Origin: Vicinamibacteria bacterium
GTDB lineage: Bacteria; Acidobacteriota; Vicinamibacteria; Vicinamibacterales; UBA2999
Assembly: GCA_025938035.1 (NCBI GenBank)
Contig: JAICQE010000064.1
Coordinates: forward strand, 1-20,621
Length of the DNA: 20,621 nucleotides
Reading direction: 5' to 3'
Shown here one piece after another: positions 1,068-18,054 of the stretch. The position numbers were made by a program, and so were the translations under genes. Positions within the stretch are counted from its first letter, which is position 1; the number at the start of each line of letters is the position of its first letter. The notes under the pieces are model-generated. The model saw only the letters and a program-made list of their open reading frames with translations, searched no databases and was not told the origin of the DNA.

Positions 1068-1123
1068 CCCCGATCCCTGATCCCCGACCCCTGGTCCCCG
1101 ATCCCTGGTCCCCGATCCCCGAT
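1068..1123. repeat. Tandem 7-bp repeat, eight units, G-quadruplex-capable
   Basis: Eight consecutive heptamers fit CCC(C/T)G(A/G)(T/C) with no slippage, in the plus-strand order CCCCGAT, CCCTGAT, CCCCGAC, CCCTGGT, CCCCGAT, CCCTGGT, CCCCGAT, CCCCGAT. On the minus strand this gives eight runs of three or four G separated by short linkers, enough for a G-quadruplex. The block starts at the last base of the TonB receptor stop codon and ends four bases before the -35 of the arsR promoter, so it fills the gap between two tandem transcription units. Confidence 0.9.
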
Positions 1124-4100
1124 CAGTAGGCGAACTTGACCGCCAGCTGCACGACGCGGGGATCGCCGGCGGTCGTAATCGATCCAAAGGCTGCGGATCC
1201 GAGGACGCCGTTCGGATTTCCAAAGGCCGGGTTATTCAGCAGATTGAATGCTTCGGCACGAAGCTCCAGCGTCATTCCCCGCTGAAGCCGCAGGCGCCGG
1301 CTGGCGGCAAGATCGACGTTGCGGTACCCGGGCCCCCGCACGGGATTGCGTGACGAATTCCCGAGCGTGAACTGCGGCGCCGCGCCGAAGGCAGCGGTGT
1401 TGAACCAGCGCGTGGTCGTCCGCCCGTCTTCCGGCAGCTCGGGATCGCCGACGAGATTCGGCCGCTGCGTGCCGAAACCGGCAAAGGCGTTGAAGTTCGT
1501 CTGCTGCGTGACGGCAATCGGCATCCCGGCCTGCAGCGTCACGATGGTGGAGAGCGTCCAGTCGCTGGCCAGGAGGCCGAGGACCCCACGCCGCGGTCCG
1601 AACGACGGCACGTTCCAGGCGCCGGACGCCACGAACACATGCGGGATGTCGCCGTTCGAATAGTCACGCTCGCGGCGCCGATCGAAGCTGTCCGCGACGG
1701 GAACGTTCGCAACCGGGCCCGTGAGCACCGACGCATCGAACACCGACGAGGCGTCGTCCATGAGACGCGAGCGCGTGTAGCTCGCCAGGTAGCTGAAGCC
1801 GCGCGCGAGACGCTGCTCCACCTTCGCCGTCAGCCCGTGGTAGTTGGTGTTGCCGACGTTGTGTCGATAGAGGCTGACCGTCGTGTACTTCGGAAACGGC
1901 TTGAGCAGCTGTGCGACGGTAATCGTCGGCTCGCCGAGCGATGAGGACCTCGGGATCTCGCCGAAGTACGGATTCGGGACGCGCGCCAGCAGCGAGTTGC
2001 CGAGCGCCAGCTGCTCAGGCGTCAGTTGATTGAGATTCGTATCAGGGATGCCGACACGCGTGATTTTCGACCCGACGTAGGCCACTTCAACGGAGACGTC
2101 GCGCGTGAGCTCGCGCTGCGCGGACGCATTCCACTGCTGCACGTATCCCGAGCCGAGATCGCCGGCGACCGAAAAAACACCCTGGCCGAGCCCGGCGAGC
2201 GGCGTCGGCTCCAGCGGTGCAACGGACGGCCCGTTCTGCAGGACGAATGCGGGATTGATCGTGTCGAGCGCACGCTGTGTGACTGTCTGCAGGAACGGGA
2301 AAGCCGGCGTCGTGAACGGCGTGGTGATCCCCGCCATCTCGATCCACACCATTCCATATCCGGCGCTGACGAGCGTGCGATCGGTCGCGCGGTATGCCAA
2401 TCCGAGCCGCGGACCAAAATTGTCCTTCTTGAGCGGACGCACGGGTTCAGTTCCCGGATACGTCAGTACCTGGTTGTCGAGATCGAACACCGCGGTCTGC
2501 CCGTTGATCTCGGTGGACGGGAAGTTCAGCGTGTAACGCACCCCGGCCGTGACCGTCAGCCGTTCGCCGACTTTCCAGTCGTCCTGAACGAAGTATTCCT
2601 GGAACCGCGCACGCTCCCTGATCTGCGACGTCTGCAGATCGATTGAAAAGCTCTGCACCTGCCCGAGCAGGAAGCTGGCCAGCGGCGATCCCGTGTCAGT
2701 AATGCCCGGCTGGTCGCTGCCCAGCTGGTTGAACGTGAAGGAGCCGGTTGGCGACGGCGGCTGGATGACGTTCAGCCGTTCCCAACGCCAGTCGAAGCCC
2801 CCCTTGACGGTGTGGCGCCCCTTCACCCAGGTCAGCGTGTCGGCGATCTCACTGACGCTGGTCCTGAAATCGGTTGCTGTATTGGGCGGCGACCCGAGCT
2901 GCGTGTAACCGCTGATGAGAAAGGTCGGCAGCGTGTTGGGGAACTGGGCTCCCGATGGAATTCCTGGAATGCTCAGCGCCGATCCCGCCGTGGTCGCAAG
3001 CTGCGCCGCCTCGCGCGTCACGTGGCGGCGCGTGTCGCCGACGCGGACCTCGTTGAGCAGCGTGCTGGAAAACGTGCGCTGATAGCTGGTCGCCAGAGCC
3101 CACGACACGGTGTTTTGCGGGCCCAGGGTGCCGGTCGTCACACCGCTGCCTTCCGGCAGCGGCGTCACGGGAACGAAGCGATCGCGGACGTTCGTGAAAC
3201 GCCCGAACACCGAGTCCTGGTTGTTCCTGAAGCGATGGTCAAGACGGACGGCCCATTGATTCTGGTCGTTCACTTCCGGCGCCGTCCGGCGGAAGTTGTT
3301 TGCCGTGCCGGCGGACGTCGGGAGCGGATATCGATTGAGCAGGGCAACCGCAACCGGATCCATGCGCTCGAGTGGGATCCTCCCGTCAACGAATGGCGTG
3401 CGAACAAACCCACCGCCCGACGCCACCGTCGTCGCGGGATCGAAGATCCGGGGAACGGTTCCGCCGATCGACTCGGTGAACACGCCTTGCCGCTGCAGCA
3501 GCGTGGGGACGGTAGAGGTGACGGTGCGTCCAATCTCCTGCCGCTGTCCCTGATAGTCGACGAAGAAGAACGTCCGATCGCGCAGCACCGGCCCCCCAAG
3601 GACCCCGCCGAACTGATTGCGTCGGAACACCGGCTTGACCGCGGGCGAGGGCGCGAAGAAGTTGCGCGCGTTCAGCTTTTCATCGCGAAGAAACTCGAAG
3701 GCCGTTCCGTGAAACTCGTTCGAGCCGCTGCGCGTCGTCAGGTTGACGACGCCGCCGTTGAAGCGGCCGAATTCCGCCGGCGGGCCGTTCGTCTCGATCT
3801 TGAATTCCTGAATGGAATCAACTACCGGGAAGTAGGCGACCTGTCCCGGCTCCGGTTGCAGCACCGAGATGCCGTCGAACAGATACTCATTCGCGCGCGG
3901 CCGTCCGCCGCTGATGCGCGGCAGCGGCGACGCCGGTGGCACGGCAACACCCGGAACCAGCGACGCGAGCGTGATGAAGCTGCGGCCGTTCAGCGGCAGC
4001 GCTGCAATCGTCTCCTCGGAAATGATCTGACCGAGGCTCGCCGTGGCCCGGAGAACCGGCGCGTCGGCGGTAACTGTCGTCGCATCGGTCAGGGCGCCAA

Positions 4101-4434
4101 CGACCAGCGTGAAATCAAGGCGAATGGTTTCGCCCGTTTCAACACGAATGCCTTTCCTGTGAATCGGACGGAAGCCCGGAAGCTCAACGTCGATGCGATA
4201 CTCGCCCGGCGGAAGCACAGGCAGGGTGTAGTCGCCGGACGAGGAAGAGACGGCCGTCCGAACGGCTCCTCCCCGCCCGCGTACAGCTGTAACGGTGGCG
4301 CCTGGAACAGGCGCTCTTTGCATGTCGATGATGGTGCCGGTCACCTGTCCGGCGCCGACCTGCGCGTCAGCGGACGCAGGGGCAAGGAGTGTCAGCAACA
4401 GCAGGAATCCCAGTGTTCGGTACGAGCGGAGCAT
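1123..4434 (-). CDS. Oar-like TonB-dependent outer-membrane receptor
   Basis: A protein of 1103 aa. ATG 4434 is chosen because it gives a clear signal peptide (MLRSYRTLGFLLLLTLLAPASADAQ); an AGAGGTGA Shine-Dalgarno lies about 11 nt upstream. Residues about 30-115 form a carboxypeptidase-regulatory-like beta sandwich ('GTIIDMQRAPVPGATVTA', 'YTLPVLPPGEYRIDVELPGF'). The plug domain follows ('LPLNGRSFITLASLVPGV', 'ANEYLFDGISV', 'VVNLTTRSGSNEFHG'). The rest is a large beta barrel with typical 'FFFVDYQGQR', 'FVQDDWKVGERLTVTAGVRY' and 'FNLLNNPAFGNPNG' segments, ending in a C-terminal aromatic (KFAY) as expected for Bam-dependent insertion. Such receptors import large ligands (glycans, peptides, metal chelates) using TonB energy. 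The substrate cannot be read from sequence. No SusD partner is adjacent; a tungstate-binding lipoprotein is divergent from it. Confidence 0.93.
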   Translation of the reverse strand: MLRSYRTLGFLLLLTLLAPASADAQVGAGQVTGTIIDMQRAPVPGATVTAVRGRGGAVRTAVSSSSGDYTLPVLPPGEYRIDVELPGFRPIHRKGIRVETGETIRLDFTLVVGALTDATTVTADAPVLRATASLGQIISEETIAALPLNGRSFITLASLVPGVAVPPASPLPRISGGRPRANEYLFDGISVLQPEPGQVAYFPVVDSIQEFKIETNGPPAEFGRFNGGVVNLTTRSGSNEFHGTAFEFLRDEKLNARNFFAPSPAVKPVFRRNQFGGVLGGPVLRDRTFFFVDYQGQRQEIGRTVTSTVPTLLQRQGVFTESIGGTVPRIFDPATTVASGGGFVRTPFVDGRIPLERMDPVAVALLNRYPLPTSAGTANNFRRTAPEVNDQNQWAVRLDHRFRNNQDSVFGRFTNVRDRFVPVTPLPEGSGVTTGTLGPQNTVSWALATSYQRTFSSTLLNEVRVGDTRRHVTREAAQLATTAGSALSIPGIPSGAQFPNTLPTFLISGYTQLGSPPNTATDFRTSVSEIADTLTWVKGRHTVKGGFDWRWERLNVIQPPSPTGSFTFNQLGSDQPGITDTGSPLASFLLGQVQSFSIDLQTSQIRERARFQEYFVQDDWKVGERLTVTAGVRYTLNFPSTEINGQTAVFDLDNQVLTYPGTEPVRPLKKDNFGPRLGLAYRATDRTLVSAGYGMVWIEMAGITTPFTTPAFPFLQTVTQRALDTINPAFVLQNGPSVAPLEPTPLAGLGQGVFSVAGDLGSGYVQQWNASAQRELTRDVSVEVAYVGSKITRVGIPDTNLNQLTPEQLALGNSLLARVPNPYFGEIPRSSSLGEPTITVAQLLKPFPKYTTVSLYRHNVGNTNYHGLTAKVEQRLARGFSYLASYTRSRLMDDASSVFDASVLTGPVANVPVADSFDRRRERDYSNGDIPHVFVASGAWNVPSFGPRRGVLGLLASDWTLSTIVTLQAGMPIAVTQQTNFNAFAGFGTQRPNLVGDPELPEDGRTTTRWFNTAAFGAAPQFTLGNSSRNPVRGPGYRNVDLAASRRLRLQRGMTLELRAEAFNLLNNPAFGNPNGVLGSAAFGSITTAGDPRVVQLAVKFAY

Positions 4435-4544
4435 GTCGACGAGAATCACCTCTGATGCCGCGCGGCGTCCAATTGATTGCACTGATGGGGCTATGGATGC
4501 CGCCAATGAACGGCAGCCCATCCGAGGCTAGTTACCGTACGCCC

Positions 4545-6559: not shown

Positions 6560-6587
6560 GCCGGATCCAGCAGAATCTGGACGTGGA

Positions 6588-6605
6588 GTCCGGCTTCAGC
6601 CGGAT
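6588..6605. repeat. 18-nt GTCCG palindromic repeat, copy 1
   Basis: GTCCGGCTTCAGCCGGAT contains a perfect TCCGGCT-TC-AGCCGGA hairpin. It belongs to a family with three other copies in this window (consensus GTCCG-S-CT-NN-MG-S-CGGA). It overlaps the 3' end of the FMN reductase gene: the stop codon (6598-6596) begins at the loop edge and the preceding codons lie in the stem. Confidence 0.75.
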
Positions 6606-7168
6606 TGACCCCGCTTATGGCGCTGAACAAACGCCGTAAACGCTCCGACATACTCGCGGACGCGGGCGTCCGTCGCCGGGTCGCTGATCCGTCCCGCATC
6701 GTCGAACACCTTCGCCGCACCGGAGACGATGACGCGCCCTTCGAAGAACGGCAGGACACCGAGAATGCGCCAGACCGGCAGCCAGGCAGCCTGCGACAAC
6801 AGCGTGCCGCCCATGCCCGGCGTGGCGCCGATGAACCCAAGCGGCAGCCCGCGGAAGACGCGCGGGATATCGGCAGAGGGACGCGACAGCCAGTCGATCG
6901 CGTTCTTCAACACGCCCGGCATCGAGTTGTTGTACTCCGGCGTCGCAATCAGCAGCCCATCAGCCGCGGCGATCCGATCCTTGAGCTGCTGAACCGCCGG
7001 CGGGATGCCCTGCCCGCTCTCGAGATCCGCGTCATACAGTGGGATGTCGCGTATCGACGCAATCTCGAGCGCCGCACCCGCCGGCATCGCCTCCGCCGCG
7101 GCACGCAGGAGCATCGCGTTGTATGAGCCGCGGCGGAGACTGCCGGCGATGCCGATGATGGTCGCCAA
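6596..7168 (-). CDS. NADPH-dependent FMN reductase / quinone reductase family protein
   Basis: A protein of 190 aa, the usual length for this flavodoxin-fold family. The FMN phosphate loop is at residues 9-17 (GSLRRGSYN) and the hallmark flavin-contact motif is 'ATPEYNNSMPGVLKNAIDWLSRP' near residue 75-97; 'GFIGATPGMGGT' follows. These enzymes transfer two electrons from NAD(P)H through FMN to quinones, chromate, azo compounds or free flavin in the cytoplasm. The start must be TTG 7168: the in-frame codon before it is the TAG stop of the upstream gene, and the next ATG would delete the phosphate loop. There is no Shine-Dalgarno, so translation probably depends on re-initiation after the cupin gene. 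The last residues and stop lie in a palindromic repeat. Confidence 0.9.
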   Translation of the reverse strand: MATIIGIAGSLRRGSYNAMLLRAAAEAMPAGAALEIASIRDIPLYDADLESGQGIPPAVQQLKDRIAAADGLLIATPEYNNSMPGVLKNAIDWLSRPSADIPRVFRGLPLGFIGATPGMGGTLLSQAAWLPVWRILGVLPFFEGRVIVSGAAKVFDDAGRISDPATDARVREYVGAFTAFVQRHKRGQSG

Positions 7169-8014
7169 CTACTTCGGCTGCTTGCTCGGGTCGTCGGCCG
7201 GGTTGACGTAGTTCACGACAAACGGCCCCATCCCATGCACCTGAAATGTGGCGGCCGTTCGTGACAGGAAGTAGTGCCGCATCTCCGCCGGCATCGACGC
7301 ATAGCCGCCGGCAGCGAGCTGCGTCATCTTGCTCTCGTCGAACTGCTCGCCCATGCCGAGCGCCACTGTGCCCGAAAGGATGGTCAGGTTCTCCGTGCCT
7401 GGATGCCAGTGTGGAGCCACCTTGTAACCAGCGGGCACCTGCGCGCGGATGACGAACGGCTGCGCCTGCGTCGGATCACCGGAGACGACTGCGATCTTCG
7501 CTCCAGGAGGCAGGCTGGGCGGTGGGTCGCCCCACTTCAAATCGGATGGGGGCATCATCACGTGCGAGCCAGCAGCAGTCGCCGGTGCCGCGTCGGCGTT
7601 GAAGATGTCCTCGGCCACCTTCCACTCGCCGTTCTCCTTCTTCCAGGTGGTGACGTACTTGCCTTTCTCCGATCCACCGGCCATCGACATCTCGTAGGAG
7701 CCTGCGGTGTAGCCGATGTCGCCGCTGGCGGCGACGACGGCTCTGGTGGGGGCAAAGGACAGTGCGAAGCCCGGTGCACCGGCCATCTCGCCATACGTCT
7801 TGCGTATCGCGTCCGAGCCGGTCACGGCCGGCATCCCGGGAGCGTGGATGGTGGCGTCGGCCGCGAAGTACGACACGAACTTGTCGACGTCCTTCACGAC
7901 GCCCGACCATTCCCGATCCTTCGCCATCAGCGCGTCCTGTTCCTGCGCCACGTTCGCGGACCGGGCGCAACCGACGAGCGCCACGACAACCACCAAGTAC
8001 GCATAACGACGCAT
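7169..8014 (-). CDS. Lipoprotein with DUF4440/SnoaL-like and cupin domains
   Basis: A protein of 281 aa. The start at ATG 8014 has a strong Shine-Dalgarno (GAAGGAGGG). The lipoprotein signal ends at Cys16 (VALVGC), so the protein should be membrane-anchored. Residues about 24-140 look like a DUF4440/SnoaL-like domain ('EQDALMAKDREWSGVVKDVDKFVSYFAADATIHAPGMPAVTG', 'GDIGYTAGSYEM', 'YVTTWKKENGEWKVAEDIFN'). Residues about 165-270 form a cupin with metal ligands in place: His202, His204, Glu208 and a later His247 ('PHWHPGTENLTILSGTVALG', 'SMPAEMRHYFL'). The substrate is unknown. The stop abuts the TTG start of the flavoprotein gene, so the two are probably an operon. Start and domain calls are firm; the enzymatic role is open. 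Confidence 0.87.
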   Translation of the reverse strand: MRRYAYLVVVVALVGCARSANVAQEQDALMAKDREWSGVVKDVDKFVSYFAADATIHAPGMPAVTGSDAIRKTYGEMAGAPGFALSFAPTRAVVAASGDIGYTAGSYEMSMAGGSEKGKYVTTWKKENGEWKVAEDIFNADAAPATAAGSHVMMPPSDLKWGDPPPSLPPGAKIAVVSGDPTQAQPFVIRAQVPAGYKVAPHWHPGTENLTILSGTVALGMGEQFDESKMTQLAAGGYASMPAEMRHYFLSRTAATFQVHGMGPFVVNYVNPADDPSKQPK

Positions 8015-8022
8015 ACGACCCT

Positions 8023-8083
8023 CCTTCGTAGTGTCCGCCTTCCGGCGGACCGTCTGGCAGGTCCGGATTTTAAGCCACGAAGG
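8023..8083. repeat. 61-bp composite palindromic element containing GTCCG repeat, copy 2
   Basis: The element is bounded by perfect 7-bp inverted ends, CCTTCGT (8023-8029) and ACGAAGG (8077-8083). Inside are the hairpin GTCCGCC-TTCC-GGCGGAC (8033-8050) and a second stem, CGGACC/GGTCCG, that shares some bases with it. It fills most of the gap between the TerB-like gene and the cupin lipoprotein gene (both minus). Its outer end contributes the CGAAGG of the cupin gene's Shine-Dalgarno region. Confidence 0.7.
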
Positions 8084-14245: not shown

Positions 14246-14262
14246 TCAGGACGGCAGCGGGG

Positions 14263-14286
14263 GTCCGCCTAAAGGCGGACACTACG
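14263..14286. repeat. GTCCG palindromic repeat, copy 3, between convergent genes
   Basis: GTCCGCCTAAAGGCGGAC (14263-14280) is a perfect 8-bp stem with a 2-nt loop, followed by ACTACG. It lies between the convergent HEAT-like gene and tctA. The TAG stop of tctA (14284-14282) is the TAG of the repeat's flanking CGTAGT. The hairpin could also act as a terminator for either gene, but it has no U tract. Confidence 0.8.
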
Positions 14287-15775
14287 ATCGCGATCGCGAA
14301 CGTGGCAGCCGCACGATGAACGGGAACATGGCGATGACGATCGCCAGCGTCGAGAGCGTTGCCGCGATCCCGTTGCTCCAGAACACGCCCAGCGATCCGC
14401 CGCTCAGAATCATCGACTGCCGGAACGCCACTTCGGCACGATCGCCAAGGACCAGCGCCAGCACGAGCGGCGCCACCGGATAGTCCAGCTTCTTGAACAC
14501 ATAGCCCACCGCCCCGAACACCAGCGCCAGCACCACGTCGAAGAGGCTGCTCGCCACGGTGTACGCCCCGGTCAGGCACGTCACGATGATCAGCGGGCCG
14601 ATGATCGAAAACGGAATGCGCAGGATCGATGCGAAGAACGGTACGGTCGCCAGCACGAGGATGACGGCGACGACGTTGGCGACGTACATCGACGCGATGA
14701 GTCCCCAGACGAACTCGCGCTGCTCGACGAACAGCAACGGGCCGGGCTGCAGCCCCCAGATCATCAGCCCGCCCATCATCACGGCCGCAGTGGCCGAGCC
14801 CGGCACGCCAAGCGCCAGCATCGGCAGCAGCGCCGAGACGCCGGCGGAGTGATCGGCCGCTTCCGGCGAGACAACGCCTTCAATCTCTCCCCGCCCGAAA
14901 TTGCCCTGCCGCCGCGAGAAGCGGCGCGCCACGCCGTACGACATGAACGACGCGGCGGTGGGGCCGCCGGGCGTGATCCCCATCCAGCAGCCGATCAACG
15001 TCGATCGCACCAGCGCCCACGCATAACGCGGCATCTGGCGCACGCTGCCGAGCACGTCGCGCAGCCCGACACGGGCTCGGACGCCCTCGAAGCGCAGCCC
15101 CTGCTCGACGGTGACGAGAATTTCGCCGATGCCGAACAGCCCGATCACCGCGACGAGAAACGGAATGCCGCGCACCAGCTCGTCGCTGCCGAACGTCAGG
15201 CGCACCTCGCCGGACACGGTGTCGAAGCCGACGGCCGCCAGCGCCAGCCCGACGAGCAGCGAAATCGCGGTCTTCGCCGGATGGCTGCCGCCCATGCCGA
15301 CGAAGCTGCAGAACGCCAGGAGATAGACGGCGAAGTACTCGGGTGCCGAGAAGCGCAGCGCGATCCCGGCGATCGAATCGGCGATGAGAGTGACGACGAC
15401 AACGCCCGCCAGCGCGCCGAAGCCGGCCGCCATGAACGCGGTCGCCAGCGCCTCCGCGGCCCGGCCCTGTTTTGCCAGCGGATACCCGTCGAACGTCGTC
15501 GCCACCGATGAGGGCTCGCCGGGGATATTGAACAGAATCGACGTCGTCGATCCGCCGAACAGCGCCCCCCAGTACATCGACGAGAGGACGATGATGCCGC
15601 TGATCGGCTCCATGCTGAAGGTCAGCGGCATCAGCAGCGTGACGCCGTTCGGTGCGCCCAGTCCCGGCAGCACGCCGACGAGGATGCCGAGCAGCACGCC
15701 GCCGGCCATCAGTGCGAGGTGATACGGCGTGACGGCAACCGCGAAGCCGTCGAGGAGCGGCGCGGCGTCAATCAT
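14282..15775 (-). CDS. tctA: Tripartite tricarboxylate transporter large permease TctA
   Basis: A protein of 497 aa, the normal TctA length. ATG 15775 overlaps the TPR gene stop as ATGA; the much longer open frame upstream is a shadow. Landmarks are 'LALMAGGVLLGILVGVLPGLGAPNGVTLLMPLTFSM', 'MYWGALFGGSTTSILFNIPGEPSSVATTFDGYPLAKQGRAAEAL', 'GIPFLVAVIGLFGIGEIL', 'GCWMGITPGGPTAASFMSYGVARRFSRR', 'GVVSPEAADHSAGVSALLPMLALGVPGSATAAVMMGGLMIWGLQPGPLLF', and 'LDYPVAPLVLALVLGDRAEVAFRQSMILSGG'. About 11-12 membrane helices are expected. It forms the inner-membrane secondary transporter with TctB and takes the anion delivered by TctC. The last residues (RSRSRS) come from a CGATCG tandem next to a palindromic repeat that supplies the stop codon. 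Confidence 0.95.
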   Translation of the reverse strand: MIDAAPLLDGFAVAVTPYHLALMAGGVLLGILVGVLPGLGAPNGVTLLMPLTFSMEPISGIIVLSSMYWGALFGGSTTSILFNIPGEPSSVATTFDGYPLAKQGRAAEALATAFMAAGFGALAGVVVVTLIADSIAGIALRFSAPEYFAVYLLAFCSFVGMGGSHPAKTAISLLVGLALAAVGFDTVSGEVRLTFGSDELVRGIPFLVAVIGLFGIGEILVTVEQGLRFEGVRARVGLRDVLGSVRQMPRYAWALVRSTLIGCWMGITPGGPTAASFMSYGVARRFSRRQGNFGRGEIEGVVSPEAADHSAGVSALLPMLALGVPGSATAAVMMGGLMIWGLQPGPLLFVEQREFVWGLIASMYVANVVAVILVLATVPFFASILRIPFSIIGPLIIVTCLTGAYTVASSLFDVVLALVFGAVGYVFKKLDYPVAPLVLALVLGDRAEVAFRQSMILSGGSLGVFWSNGIAATLSTLAIVIAMFPFIVRLPRSRSRS

Positions 15776-16524
15776 CGGGTGGCGGGAGCTGCCTTCGGCA
15801 TGCGCTTCAACAGCGCCTTCGCCTTCTTGAACCAGGGACGTTCGCGCCGCCGCAGGTATAGGGGCATGCTGTCGCGGCGGGTGACGATCCGCTGCGCCCA
15901 GCTGCGCGCTTCGTCGGTGCGGCCCTGCGCGGCGAGGAAGCTCGCGTAGTTGTAGTACGTCTCCGGCAGCGTGGACGACTCCGTCACCCGCGCGAACAGC
16001 GCATCCGCCCGCTGGACGTCGCCCGTCTGCGCGCAGGCGTGGGCGAGGAGCGCCAACGCGCGATGCGAGTCGTACCTCGGCTCGCGCGCGACGACCTGCT
16101 CCAGATCGTCCCTGGCCGCGGCCGCATCGTCGAGATGCAGCGCGGCAATCGCGCGGCGATAGCGCGCGTCCAGATGATCGCCGGGCCGCGCCAGCACCTT
16201 GTCGTAGCACTCGCGCGCGCGGGCGAACTTCTGTTCGTCGAGGTAGAGGTCGGCCAGCTCCTCGTAATTACCGGGCGCCGGGTTCTCGAGCACGAGCGCT
16301 TCGAGGTAGCGGATGCGCTTCTTGCGACCATAGGAGTCGAACGACTGCCGCAGCAGCGACAGATCCGGCACGACCTCGACGGCCAGGTAGATCAGCGCTC
16401 CCGGCGGTCCGCCGAGGAAGATGACGAAGAACCAGAAGTTGTCGGGCCGCCGTCGGAAGAAGTGCGCGACCGCCAGCAGCTGCAGGATCGCGCCCCACGG
16501 ATAGAGGAAGCCGATGAATCCCAT
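15772..16524 (-). CDS. TPR-repeat membrane protein between tctB and tctA
   Basis: A protein of 250 aa starting at ATG 16524, 3 nt after the tctB stop; its own stop overlaps tctA (ATGA). Two N-terminal membrane segments (residues about 3-23 and 29-52; 'FIGFLYPWGAILQLLAVAHFF', 'FWFFVIFLGGPPGALIYLAVEVVP') resemble the short hydrophobic leader of PLDc_N-type proteins. A basic patch follows, then about four or five tetratricopeptide units from residue about 85 ('NYEELADLYLDEQKFARARECYDKVL', 'LDARYRRAIAALHLDDAAAARDDLEQVV', 'ALALLAHACAQTGDVQRADALFARV', 'TYYNYASFLAAQGRTDEARSWAQRIV'). TPRs bind proteins. TTT operons normally run tctC-tctB-tctA, so this gene is an addition. It may be an assembly or regulatory partner of the transporter, or an unrelated gene captured by the operon. 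Confidence 0.85.
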   Translation of the reverse strand: MGFIGFLYPWGAILQLLAVAHFFRRRPDNFWFFVIFLGGPPGALIYLAVEVVPDLSLLRQSFDSYGRKKRIRYLEALVLENPAPGNYEELADLYLDEQKFARARECYDKVLARPGDHLDARYRRAIAALHLDDAAAARDDLEQVVAREPRYDSHRALALLAHACAQTGDVQRADALFARVTESSTLPETYYNYASFLAAQGRTDEARSWAQRIVTRRDSMPLYLRRRERPWFKKAKALLKRMPKAAPATR

Positions 16525-16527
16525 CGC

Positions 16528-16998
16528 TCAGTAGAGCCCGAGTGCGGCTTCGATCGGTCCCTTCGCCAGCGGCACGCGGAACCATAGATCGAACACGAGG
16601 AAGAACGCGAGAGCAATGGCAACGCCGTAGGCGGCGGACAGCAGCCAGCCGTACCCCCCGTGCCGGCGCATCATCCACGCGAGATAGACGGCGGAGGGAA
16701 CATAGCAGCCGAGCGGAAACATCGCCGCTACAAGGGCAATCGTCGGCCAGAGCACGCTGAGGCTGCGCCCGAGTTCCTCGCGGGTGACAAAAGCAGTCGT
16801 CGTGTCCGGCTTCAGGCGGACCTGAAACGTGCGGATAATCGCTGCCCCGATCAGCAGCACCCCGATACGGAACGGAAAGTAGCCCGAGCCGGGCCCCGTC
16901 TCGTTCCAGCCGATGTCATGCGTGAGGCTTTCCGAGACGACGACCACGCCGAGAAGCGCGACAGCAACAGCCGTCCAAATCTCGACGGTCCGTTGCAT
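16528..16998 (-). CDS. tctB: Tripartite tricarboxylate transporter small subunit TctB
   Basis: A protein of 156 aa with four membrane segments, the usual TctB size. I prefer ATG 16998 (AGGGGA about 11 nt upstream) over ATG 17040, which would add 14 polar residues and overlap tctC. The hallmark 'ETGPGSGYFPFRIGVLLIGAAI' is at residues 33-54, and 'WPTIALVAAMFPLGCYVPSAVYLAWMM' and 'AYGVAIALAFFLVFDLWFRVPLAKG' follow. TctB pairs with TctA in the inner membrane. Residues 60-67 (VRLKPDTT), in the loop after helix 2, are encoded by a palindromic repeat that occurs elsewhere in non-coding DNA. The loop tolerates this because it lies between helices. The call rests on topology, the GPG-FPF motif and operon position. 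Confidence 0.9.
   Translation of the reverse strand: MQRTVEIWTAVAVALLGVVVVSESLTHDIGWNETGPGSGYFPFRIGVLLIGAAIIRTFQVRLKPDTTTAFVTREELGRSLSVLWPTIALVAAMFPLGCYVPSAVYLAWMMRRHGGYGWLLSAAYGVAIALAFFLVFDLWFRVPLAKGPIEAALGLY
16804..16821. repeat. GTCCG palindromic repeat, copy 4, inside tctB
   Basis: GTCCGGCTTCAGGCGGAC matches the other three copies and shares the flanking CGT-x-GT with copy 2 and, in reverse, with copy 3. It is in frame within tctB and, with the next bases, encodes VRLKPDTT on the minus strand. Confidence 0.75.
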
Positions 16999-17020
16999 CG
17001 CGCAGGGCGTCCCCTCGCTG

Positions 17021-18010
17021 TTACTTGACGAGCCAGCCATCCTCGGCGAATTGTCCGCGCAGCCAGCGTTCGTCGGCCGCGATGTAGTCGGTCAGCTCGG
17101 TCCCGCTCAGAAACGCATCGGTCTGCGATCCGTTGCGCAGCCACGCCTTCCATTCTTCGGTGTCGCGAACCCTGGCCAGCACGGTCCGGTAGAACGCGAC
17201 CTGCTCGTCGGTCACACCTTTCGGCAGCCACACGGTCCGCGGCATCTGATAGCGTTCGATCGGCAGCCCCGCTTCCTTGCAGGTCGGAATACCGGCCGCA
17301 TCCGCGTAGTTCAGCCGCGCCGGGGAGAAGACGCACAGCGGGCGGATCGCGCCGGCGCGCCATTGCCCCATGTTTTCCTGCGGGTTGTTGACGTTGGCCG
17401 CAACGTGACCCCCGGCCAGCTGCACCGCCACCTCGCTGCCGGACCTGAAGGGCACGTAGGCGAACGCCACGTGGCCGACCTTCTCGATCTGCCGCACCAG
17501 GACCTGGTCGGTGTCCTTCGACGCCGTTCCGGCAATCGCCAGATGCTTGCTGGCGCCGCGTGCCGCGTCGAGGAACGTCGTCACGTCCCGGTACGGCGCG
17601 GTCGAGTTCACCCACAGCATGAACTCGTCGAAGGCCACGGCAGCCACCGGCTGCAGATCCGACCAGGCGTAGCCGACCGATGACCCCAGTGGCAGCAGCC
17701 AGACGTTGTTGGTCGCGAAGACCACCTTGTGCGGATTGCCGCTGGACCCTTTGGCGTAAACGAACGCCTCCGATCCGGAACCGCCGCCCTTGTTGGTGAC
17801 GATCACCGAGCCATCTATCAGCTTGTATTTCTGGATGATCGACTGAACGGTGCGTGCGAGAAGGTCGCTGCCGCCGCCGGGACCCGCGGCGACGACGAAC
17901 TCAATCGGCCGGTTCGGCGCCCACGCGGTGTCAGGGGCGGGCGCTGCGCACCCGGCAGTCGCCACCACTAGAAACGGCACACCGAGACACCGAGACACTG
18001 AGGTTTTCAT
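17021..18010 (-). CDS. tctC: Tripartite tricarboxylate transporter solute-binding protein TctC
   Basis: A protein of 329 aa; ATG 18010 follows AAGGGA with no spacer. The signal ends in a possible lipobox at Cys21 (VVATAGC). Mature landmarks of the family are 'WAPNRPIEFVVAAGPGGGSDLLARTV' (ligand loop), 'NKGGGSGSEAFVYAKGSSGNPHKVVFATN', 'DLQPVAAVAFDEFMLWVN', 'HVAFAYVPFRSGSEVAVQLAGGHVAANVNNP', and 'GAIRPLCVFSPARLNYADAAGIPTCKEAGLPI'. It binds an organic anion outside the inner membrane and hands it to TctAB. The 44-nt gap to the cupin gene and the first codons consist of an inverted CACCGAG-type repeat, so the signal peptide (KTSVSRCLGV) is repeat-derived. The open frame extending upstream to about 18676 is a shadow of the cupin gene. 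Confidence 0.93.
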   Translation of the reverse strand: MKTSVSRCLGVPFLVVATAGCAAPAPDTAWAPNRPIEFVVAAGPGGGSDLLARTVQSIIQKYKLIDGSVIVTNKGGGSGSEAFVYAKGSSGNPHKVVFATNNVWLLPLGSSVGYAWSDLQPVAAVAFDEFMLWVNSTAPYRDVTTFLDAARGASKHLAIAGTASKDTDQVLVRQIEKVGHVAFAYVPFRSGSEVAVQLAGGHVAANVNNPQENMGQWRAGAIRPLCVFSPARLNYADAAGIPTCKEAGLPIERYQMPRTVWLPKGVTDEQVAFYRTVLARVRDTEEWKAWLRNGSQTDAFLSGTELTDYIAADERWLRGQFAEDGWLVK

Positions 18011-18043
18011 TCCCTTGTCCCGGTGCCTTGGTGCCTCGGTGTG
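17978..18043 (-). repeat. Inverted repeat forming a hairpin around the tctC start codon
   Basis: The arms 18043-18023 (5' in the mRNA) and 17998-17978 (3') pair at 18 of 21 positions, and two of the three mismatches can be G-U pairs in RNA. The 24-nt loop holds AAGGGA and the ATG start of tctC. The arms consist of CACCGAG-related units, a repeat type different from the GTCCG palindromes. Confidence 0.8.
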
Positions 18044-18054
18044 TCGGGAGTCCG

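Follow-up and report, generated by a model that had tools for sequence, protein, structure and literature searches.

A REP-like palindromic repeat as coding sequence in a variable loop of the transporter protein TctB

A GTAG-tagged REP has very probably been fixed in a stop-free frame of tctB, where, between helices 2 and 3 of the transporter protein, it would be translated into a loop peptide that is shared with many unrelated proteins. REPs are short hairpin repeats whose spread is attributed to REP-associated tyrosine transposases. Direct observations concern the element with its frame, its relatives in the window (the whole stretch of 20,621 nucleotides that was analysed), the occurrence of the peptide in unrelated proteins and the variability of the loop.

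The tct locus

The window carries on its minus strand an operon-like succession of tctC, tctB, a gene for a TPR protein and tctA. The tctC gene encodes the periplasmic receptor of the TctCBA transporter (17021..18004; PF03401, 50.1 bits), tctB is located at 16528..17040 (Pfam TctB PF07331, 60.1 bits, profile positions 3-136 of 137) and tctA at 14282..15778 (PF01970, 472.5 bits). The tctB product consists of 170 amino acids, or of 156 if the ATG at 16998 is used. The cluster of the 156-residue protein is present in 33 contigs, which makes an assembly error in the tctB sequence unlikely. A TctB homologue with 79% identity is labelled by its source as belonging to a Vicinamibacterales bacterium, and the window encodes two proteins of the TIGR03435 family, which we take to be typical of Acidobacteriota. 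Both observations support the earlier suggestion that the DNA derives from a probable acidobacterium. A search with Rfam at gathering thresholds gave no match.

The window holds other repeats as well. For instance, ACACCGAG is present three times at 17979-18050, at the start of tctC in the signal-peptide region, and an inverted GGTGCCTCGGTGTG-like partner can be seen by eye just upstream; the triplet seems to be another repeat touching a coding start. Moreover, a 14-nt unit, CCCCGATCCCTGAT, occurs four times at 1068-1124 beside the 3' end of an outer-membrane beta-barrel gene (1123-4521).

Copies of the palindrome in the window

The palindrome GTCCG-N8-CGGAC is found exactly at 8033-8050, 14263-14280 and 16804-16821, the last being the 18-mer GTCCGGCTTCAGGCGGAC on the strand opposite the coding strand of tctB. 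A fourth site (6588-6605) has one mismatch. The earlier note had counted three sites besides the one in tctB; two of them are indeed exact, but the fourth is more plausibly a second subtype than a copy in decay. From the wider copies at 8026..8051 (plus strand, between two minus-strand genes) and 14262..14287 (minus strand, between convergent genes) a 26-nt consensus was drawn, TCGTAGTGTCCGNCTTNNGNCGGACC, to which both have zero mismatches by construction. Each consists of a GTAG tag, one unpaired T as spacer, a 7-bp stem and a 4-nt loop. The second subtype, ACGTGGAGTCCGGCTTCAGCCGGATT (6581..6606, plus strand), has a GTGG tag two bases from a 6-bp stem, and its minus strand reads IRLKPDST. The copy inside tctB, TCGTCGTGTCCGGCTTCAGGCGGACC (16797..16822, plus strand, the minus strand being the coding one), has one mismatch to the consensus, an interrupted stem and GTCG where the two exact copies have GTAG. 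By tag, spacer, stem and loop, the element fits the GTAG-type REPs, for which stems of 5-13 bp and loops of 2-20 nt are given in Table 1 of PMC3733652; REPs have also been searched for with GTAG or GTGG at 0-2 nt from the stem, 7-20 fully paired positions and a loop of 2-5 nt (PMC6006769).

In the window, the 18-mer palindrome is more common than expected by chance: three exact palindromes were observed, as compared to a mean of 0.027 and a maximum of 1 in 300 order-3 Markov simulations. Similarly, the 26-nt consensus with up to six mismatches gave four matches, as compared to a mean of 0.33 and a maximum of 1 in 30 simulations. Since both patterns derive from this very window, the figures flatter the element. 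When two mismatches were allowed in the palindrome, there was no enrichment in the window (33 vs 31.2). Independent support comes from other proteins. As a control, 398 genomes were drawn from the phylum to which the Xanthobacteraceae outgroup introduced below belongs, and the tagged pattern was found in none of them.

With four copies in 20.6 kb, one provides a TAG stop, one a TGA stop, one is the neighbour of a ribosome-binding site and one is a coding stretch. The TAG stop codon of tctA (14284-14282, minus strand) belongs to the copy at 14262..14287, and the gene for an NADPH-dependent FMN reductase (flavin reductase; assigned by Pfam, 6596..7168, minus strand) ends with a TGA (6598-6596, minus strand) within the subtype-2 copy. 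The copy at 8026..8051 adjoins AAGGAGG, a Shine-Dalgarno sequence by eye, upstream of a start at 8014. The frame that reads VRLK is open in all four copies, whereas the other frames are closed in some of them by TAG, TAA or TGA, which explains the stop codons donated by REP copies.

The coding copy in tctB

In the frame of tctB, the copy at 16797-16822 reads GTC CGC CTG AAG CCG GAC ACG ACG, that is VRLKPDTT, residues 60-67 of the 156-residue reading. The earlier claim of a palindrome lying in frame and encoding this peptide is thus borne out, with the qualification that the 18 nt at 16804-16821 encode only VRLKPD and the full peptide needs the wider element. In the tctB copy the palindrome is imperfect: with CGC in place of CGG, the sixth stem pair becomes G-G, and with ACG in place of ACT, the GTAG tag becomes GTCG. 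Both departures, at an Arg and a Thr codon, are synonymous and keep the peptide. The hairpin is worn and the peptide is intact, two synonymous changes being too few for a test of selection. DNA folding gave -6.2 kcal/mol for the plus strand and -4.2 kcal/mol for the minus strand of the tctB copy, as compared to -8.0 to -9.2 kcal/mol for the exact copies and -6.4 and -6.5 kcal/mol for subtype 2.

An AlphaFold model of moderate confidence (27 sequences, mean pLDDT 63.5, pTM 0.47) places VRLKPDTT at the end of a predicted helix (residues 40-62) and in the coil before the next one (residues 73-96). The peptide thus belongs to the stretch that joins helices 2 and 3, and the basic residues of this loop suggest that it is cytoplasmic.

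The loop in TctB homologues

At E ≤0.001, 337 TctB homologues were found, and the loops of 120 of them were read. Together with the protein P0173 and the outgroup L001 they make up 122 rows, in all of which the loop could be anchored between a conserved Gln and a Phe-Val-Thr. The outgroup was obtained by a TctB scan of genome contigs, in which 47 stretches matched the pattern and one, from a Xanthobacteraceae MAG, encoded a relative; PF01797 had no match in this outgroup genome. Loop types were assigned with regular expressions of our own, and strict and broad counts were kept apart. The loops have 8-46 residues. The strict pattern [VI]RLK[AP]D[TS] is present in 50 of the 120 homologues read, and by a broader pattern 75 of the 122 rows carry the K-type repeat. 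Only a different repeat, RGTGSAS...ASGPV with its relatives, was detected in 30 rows, and neither pattern in 17, several of which are visibly degenerate or contain other repeats. A loop can have one to four repeat copies, some of them partial. VRLKADTT and IRLKPDST, the peptides of both DNA subtypes of the window, recur in TctB loops, the latter being the translation of the non-coding subtype-2 copy. Degenerate forms such as ARLKPGPTT and VRLHAEST are also present.

Proteins with similar cores may differ strongly in the loop. P0011, which has the nearest core among the homologues listed (97% over 144 columns), continues after VRL with a repeat of the RGTGSAS...ASGPV type. P0074 and P0090 have identical cores and different repeat copy numbers, and the cores of P0091 and P0173 are likewise identical, with loops of 10 and 41 residues, respectively. 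Among 74 close pairs, 58 differ in loop length, a figure that is biased upwards, and five have identical loops; the protein database was clustered at 90% identity, so that near-identical TctB proteins are listed apart mainly if their loops or N-termini differ. On a TctB tree built from few columns and poorly resolved (68 of 115 inner branches open), the loop type (K or not) requires at least 25 changes, whereas 200 label shuffles required 37.8 on average and never fewer than 30. The loop state is partly inherited and often changed.

Six of the 120 loops lack a recognisable repeat (P0079, P0080, P0082, P0094, P0104 and P0106; 8-10 residues), and at least two of these may be worn repeats. The loop SLRVPDGES of the outgroup L001 (9 residues) is also without repeat. 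If the repeat were an insertion, as envisaged in the earlier note, an alignment with homologues should reveal extra residues. The loop is indeed hypervariable and built of repeats, but the single copy is not a net insertion, since the loop of the window has 10 residues and is no longer than the repeat-free loops. Either the single repeat was substituted for the loop without making it longer, or the loops that now lack a repeat go back to repeats that have worn away. The multi-copy loops, by contrast, are net insertions.

The second repeat, RGTGSAS...ASGPV, occurs in P0011, P0019, many of P0095-P0120 and P0173, alone or fused to VRLK repeats, and has tandem forms such as SLGQTVRGTGPA. A search with this repeat yielded TctB proteins only (four of four). 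The N-termini of P0013, P0021 and P0089 are a second variable zone, with GGTPEGVPY-like repeats.

The repeat peptide in unrelated proteins

With the loop of the homologue P0006, which has three copies, as query, 76 proteins were found at E ≤10, of which 52 have no TctB domain. Fourteen of the 52 were found at E ≤0.001, and the weaker matches were kept after reading. Exact RLK[AP]DTT is present in 48 of the 52, and the broader pattern counts 154 repeat copies. After masking of the repeats, the 52 proteins fall into 31 groups, which is an upper figure for real families, as several of the proteins resemble spurious ORFs that run through repeat arrays. Precomputed Pfam domains were available for 11 of the 52 proteins, and all 10 that were scanned matched Pfam. 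The check proposed in the earlier note, a search for such peptides in unrelated proteins, has thus yielded 52 proteins in 31 groups, some with the repeat inside conserved domains; these proteins may come from related organisms. Here and in the TctB homologues, the repeats were read from peptides and not from DNA.

The clearest case is P0143, an EngB-type GTPase (E 0.095), in which 63 residues stand where the PDB structure 3pqc has seven. This insert, which holds four VRLK-type copies and one SVRLQPD, is clearly absent from the homologue, whereas in the single-copy TctB loop residues are replaced and not added. In the PhzF-like isomerase P0137, three copies lie immediately ahead of the C-terminal matched stretch and in part overlap its start, and the copies of an ABC ATPase and of a uracil-DNA glycosylase precede the best-matched domain. 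Among the representatives of the 31 groups, the array is interior in 15, near the N-terminus in 10 and near the C-terminus in six; in 16 of the 31, it lies within 40 amino acids of an end. Neighbouring copies are 10 residues apart in 55 of 102 spacings, corresponding to head-to-tail arrays with a 30-nt step.

The query was in the VRLK frame of tctB, so that the search gives no measure of frame use among coding copies. Peptides predicted from the window DNA for other frames were detected in eight of the 52 proteins (SVRLQPD in three, SAFRRT in four, GPPEGGHY in one), as compared to at most 0.01 copies in shuffled proteins; in TctB, they are present in 1, 0 and 0 of 121 proteins, respectively. 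The four SAFRRT cases belong to one family, and SVRLQPD can also be reached from the forward frame by a Lys to Gln change. The peptides support, without proving, that the DNA element is present in both orientations. P0121-P0124, P0130, P0139, P0145 and P0150 form one family without Pfam match, with repeat arrays after a membrane helix, which we read as anti-sigma-like; in four of these proteins, SAFRRT comes after the array and may be a copy in reverse orientation. A tblastn search of plasmids with a repeat-rich protein gave no match.

Phage contigs

In viral contigs, the strict tagged pattern had no match and the next pattern one. In the contig L003 (10779-12500), a tagged copy at the end of the gene for the terminase small subunit, beside that for the large subunit, encodes PIPEVRLKPDTTAPTPAG with VRLKPDTT. 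An adjoining ORF of L003, weakly matched by HNH, includes a second copy, which has no GTAG tag and is read in frame as SSVRLKPDREPSW. The element has thus been found in frame in unrelated genes by peptide in 52 proteins and by DNA in tctB and the two ORFs of L003. The contigs L004, L005, L006, L008, L009, L010 and L011 gave loose-pattern matches only and were judged on reading to be chance matches or too distant. An ORF of the viral contig L007 ends with SSVRLKPDTSEAQPSK.

Relation to known palindromic repeats

The superfamily of GTAG REPs (Di Nocera et al. 2013, PMC3733652) resembles the present element in its tag, its stem-loop size, its location at gene ends and its stop codon, as these REPs often donate a TAG to a neighbouring ORF. 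GTAG REPs also lie inside ORFs and add amino acids. For instance, clusters of them code for 43-82 residues in Thauera and R. conorii, and two Xanthomonas have different REPs at nearly the same position in recB. However, a single loop that is re-decorated across many relatives was not found described in the accessible part of that paper, whose main text mentions "acidobacter" once, with respect to transposases with long terminal repeats. The transposases noted for Acidobacteria in another survey belong to class 3, and the structures on their flanks are atypical, with CnGA as foot instead of GTAG (PMC6006769). REP counts have been given for three other Acidobacteriota (PMC12306157), and REPs as such are not new to this phylum.

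The earlier note had likened the repeat to the coding palindromes of Rickettsia. As a way of working the comparison is fair, because the RPE are palindromes that lie in frame in unrelated genes and encode a conserved peptide (Ogata et al. 2000, 2002, as described in PMC10969869 and PMC3733652). The element itself, however, is closer to the GTAG REPs (PMC3733652). An RPE is given as having about 150 bp (PMC10969869), and RPE-4 and RPE-6 carry a CGTC tag, whereas the element described here has 26 nt, with GTAG in two copies and GTGG in one. At 16798-16801, the tctB copy has CGTC as well, in our view by a single change from CGTA, since the exact relatives have CGTA.

A short perfect stem, a tetranucleotide near the stem and a short loop are also features of the group 3 RAYT/TnpA-REP systems, and the loop TTTA of a Marinomonas REP is that of the copy at 14262 (PMC8266576). 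In the window no transposase was found, as none of the 18 proteins to which Pfam was applied matched Y1_Tnp. For the mitochondria of Nematomorpha, inverted repeats within protein-coding genes have furthermore been reported, there as perfect repeats of up to 284 bp (PMC6649704). Coding REPs from other phyla and the coding palindromes of Rickettsia are already in print (PMC3733652, PMC10969869). New are the occurrence in a probable member of the Acidobacteriota, the head-to-tail coding arrays and the one recurrently re-decorated loop. Among the openly licensed papers listed by the searches, no such report for Vicinamibacterales was found, and the peptide names VRLKPDTT and VRLKADTT gave no paper.

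Origin of the coding repeat

Judging by its class, the GTAG REP would move as a single-stranded DNA hairpin with the help of a RAYT-type enzyme (PMC8266576) and would land by chance in a frame where extra or replaced residues are tolerated. In tctB, one copy would have been fixed in this way, in a stop-free frame that encodes the loop joining helices 2 and 3, and would be read as protein; TctB with the repeat is presumably made. The loop appears to tolerate very different sequences, so that repeats may come, go and multiply while the transmembrane core stays conserved, and the peptide is likely to be near neutral in TctB. The same peptide is present in many unrelated proteins, where it lies in linkers, at termini or in loops, and where the copies are presumably encoded by the same DNA element in related organisms. 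Single copies may arrive via transposase-mediated transfer, and head-to-tail arrays, mostly with a 30-nt step, may then grow by slippage or unequal recombination; for the arrays with the 10-residue step, slippage is the probable route. The CnGA foot beside the transposases noted for Acidobacteria (PMC6006769) speaks against the transposase step. Other points against the reading as a whole are the single-copy loop, which does not exceed the repeat-free loops in length, the restriction of the RGTGSAS...ASGPV matches to TctB proteins and the scarcity of the tagged pattern in viral contigs.

It is highly improbable that the loop is ordinary inherited TctB sequence and its likeness to the repeat a coincidence. 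The single-copy loop does have the length of the repeat-free loops (10 vs 8-10 residues), the outgroup loop of L001 has PD at a similar place, and the loop state is partly inherited (25 changes vs a shuffled mean of 37.8). However, a coincidence would have to account for a 26-nt match with one mismatch to a consensus that two non-coding copies meet exactly, for the tandem copies in homologues and for the copies in 52 non-TctB proteins. It is also conceivable that the hairpin is kept for a role in RNA or DNA, for instance in differential expression within the tctCBA transcript or in protein binding, the peptide being a by-product. The other three copies lie at gene ends or beside a ribosome-binding site, and REPs at such places have been proposed to be RNA elements (PMC3733652). 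We nevertheless consider such a role very unlikely for the tctB copy, as its stem is broken at pair 6, its tag reads GTCG, its fold is weaker than that of the exact copies, and the codons CGC and ACG lose the hairpin or tag and yet keep the peptide.

The persistence of the peptide with two codons off the hairpin form would also fit selection for the peptide itself, in-frame copies being retained because a hydrophilic, extended KPDTT linker is useful to many proteins; a linker or tail is plausible for the 16 of 31 arrays near an end. This explanation is unlikely, given that close relatives swap the repeat for unrelated repeats or lose it and that ARLKPGPTT and VRLHAEST occur, and a test would need more than the two synonymous changes. 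A spread of the coding copies mainly by tandem duplication and recombination between copies, without a transposase, deserves more consideration, although it seems doubtful to us. The head-to-tail arrays with their dominant 10-residue step (55 of 102 spacings) point in this direction, but the first arrival in unrelated genes would be left unexplained, and possible reverse-orientation copies are present in seven of the 52 proteins (four in one family, three ambiguous). The fixation of a GTAG-tagged REP in a stop-free frame of the loop remains the preferred reading for tctB.

Implications

If this reading is true, coding palindromic repeats extend to the Acidobacteriota and to bacteria known mostly from metagenomes. 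In proteins mined in bulk from metagenomes, arrays of the VRLKPDTT type may mislead annotation and structure prediction. The predicted tryptic peptide LKPDTTTAFVTR would be a clear target for metaproteomes; trypsin rarely cuts before proline. Moreover, a transporter loop that is re-decorated by different repeats would be a natural series in which to test how mobile DNA gives rise to new stretches of protein and how much change a membrane protein can bear. It is possible, with somewhat less than an even chance in our view, that the REP subtypes of Vicinamibacterales are a standing source of protein sequence, which enter stop-free frames, form head-to-tail arrays and are swapped time and again at the TctB loop that joins helices 2 and 3, where close relatives would consequently differ most, and which phages may carry in their genes.
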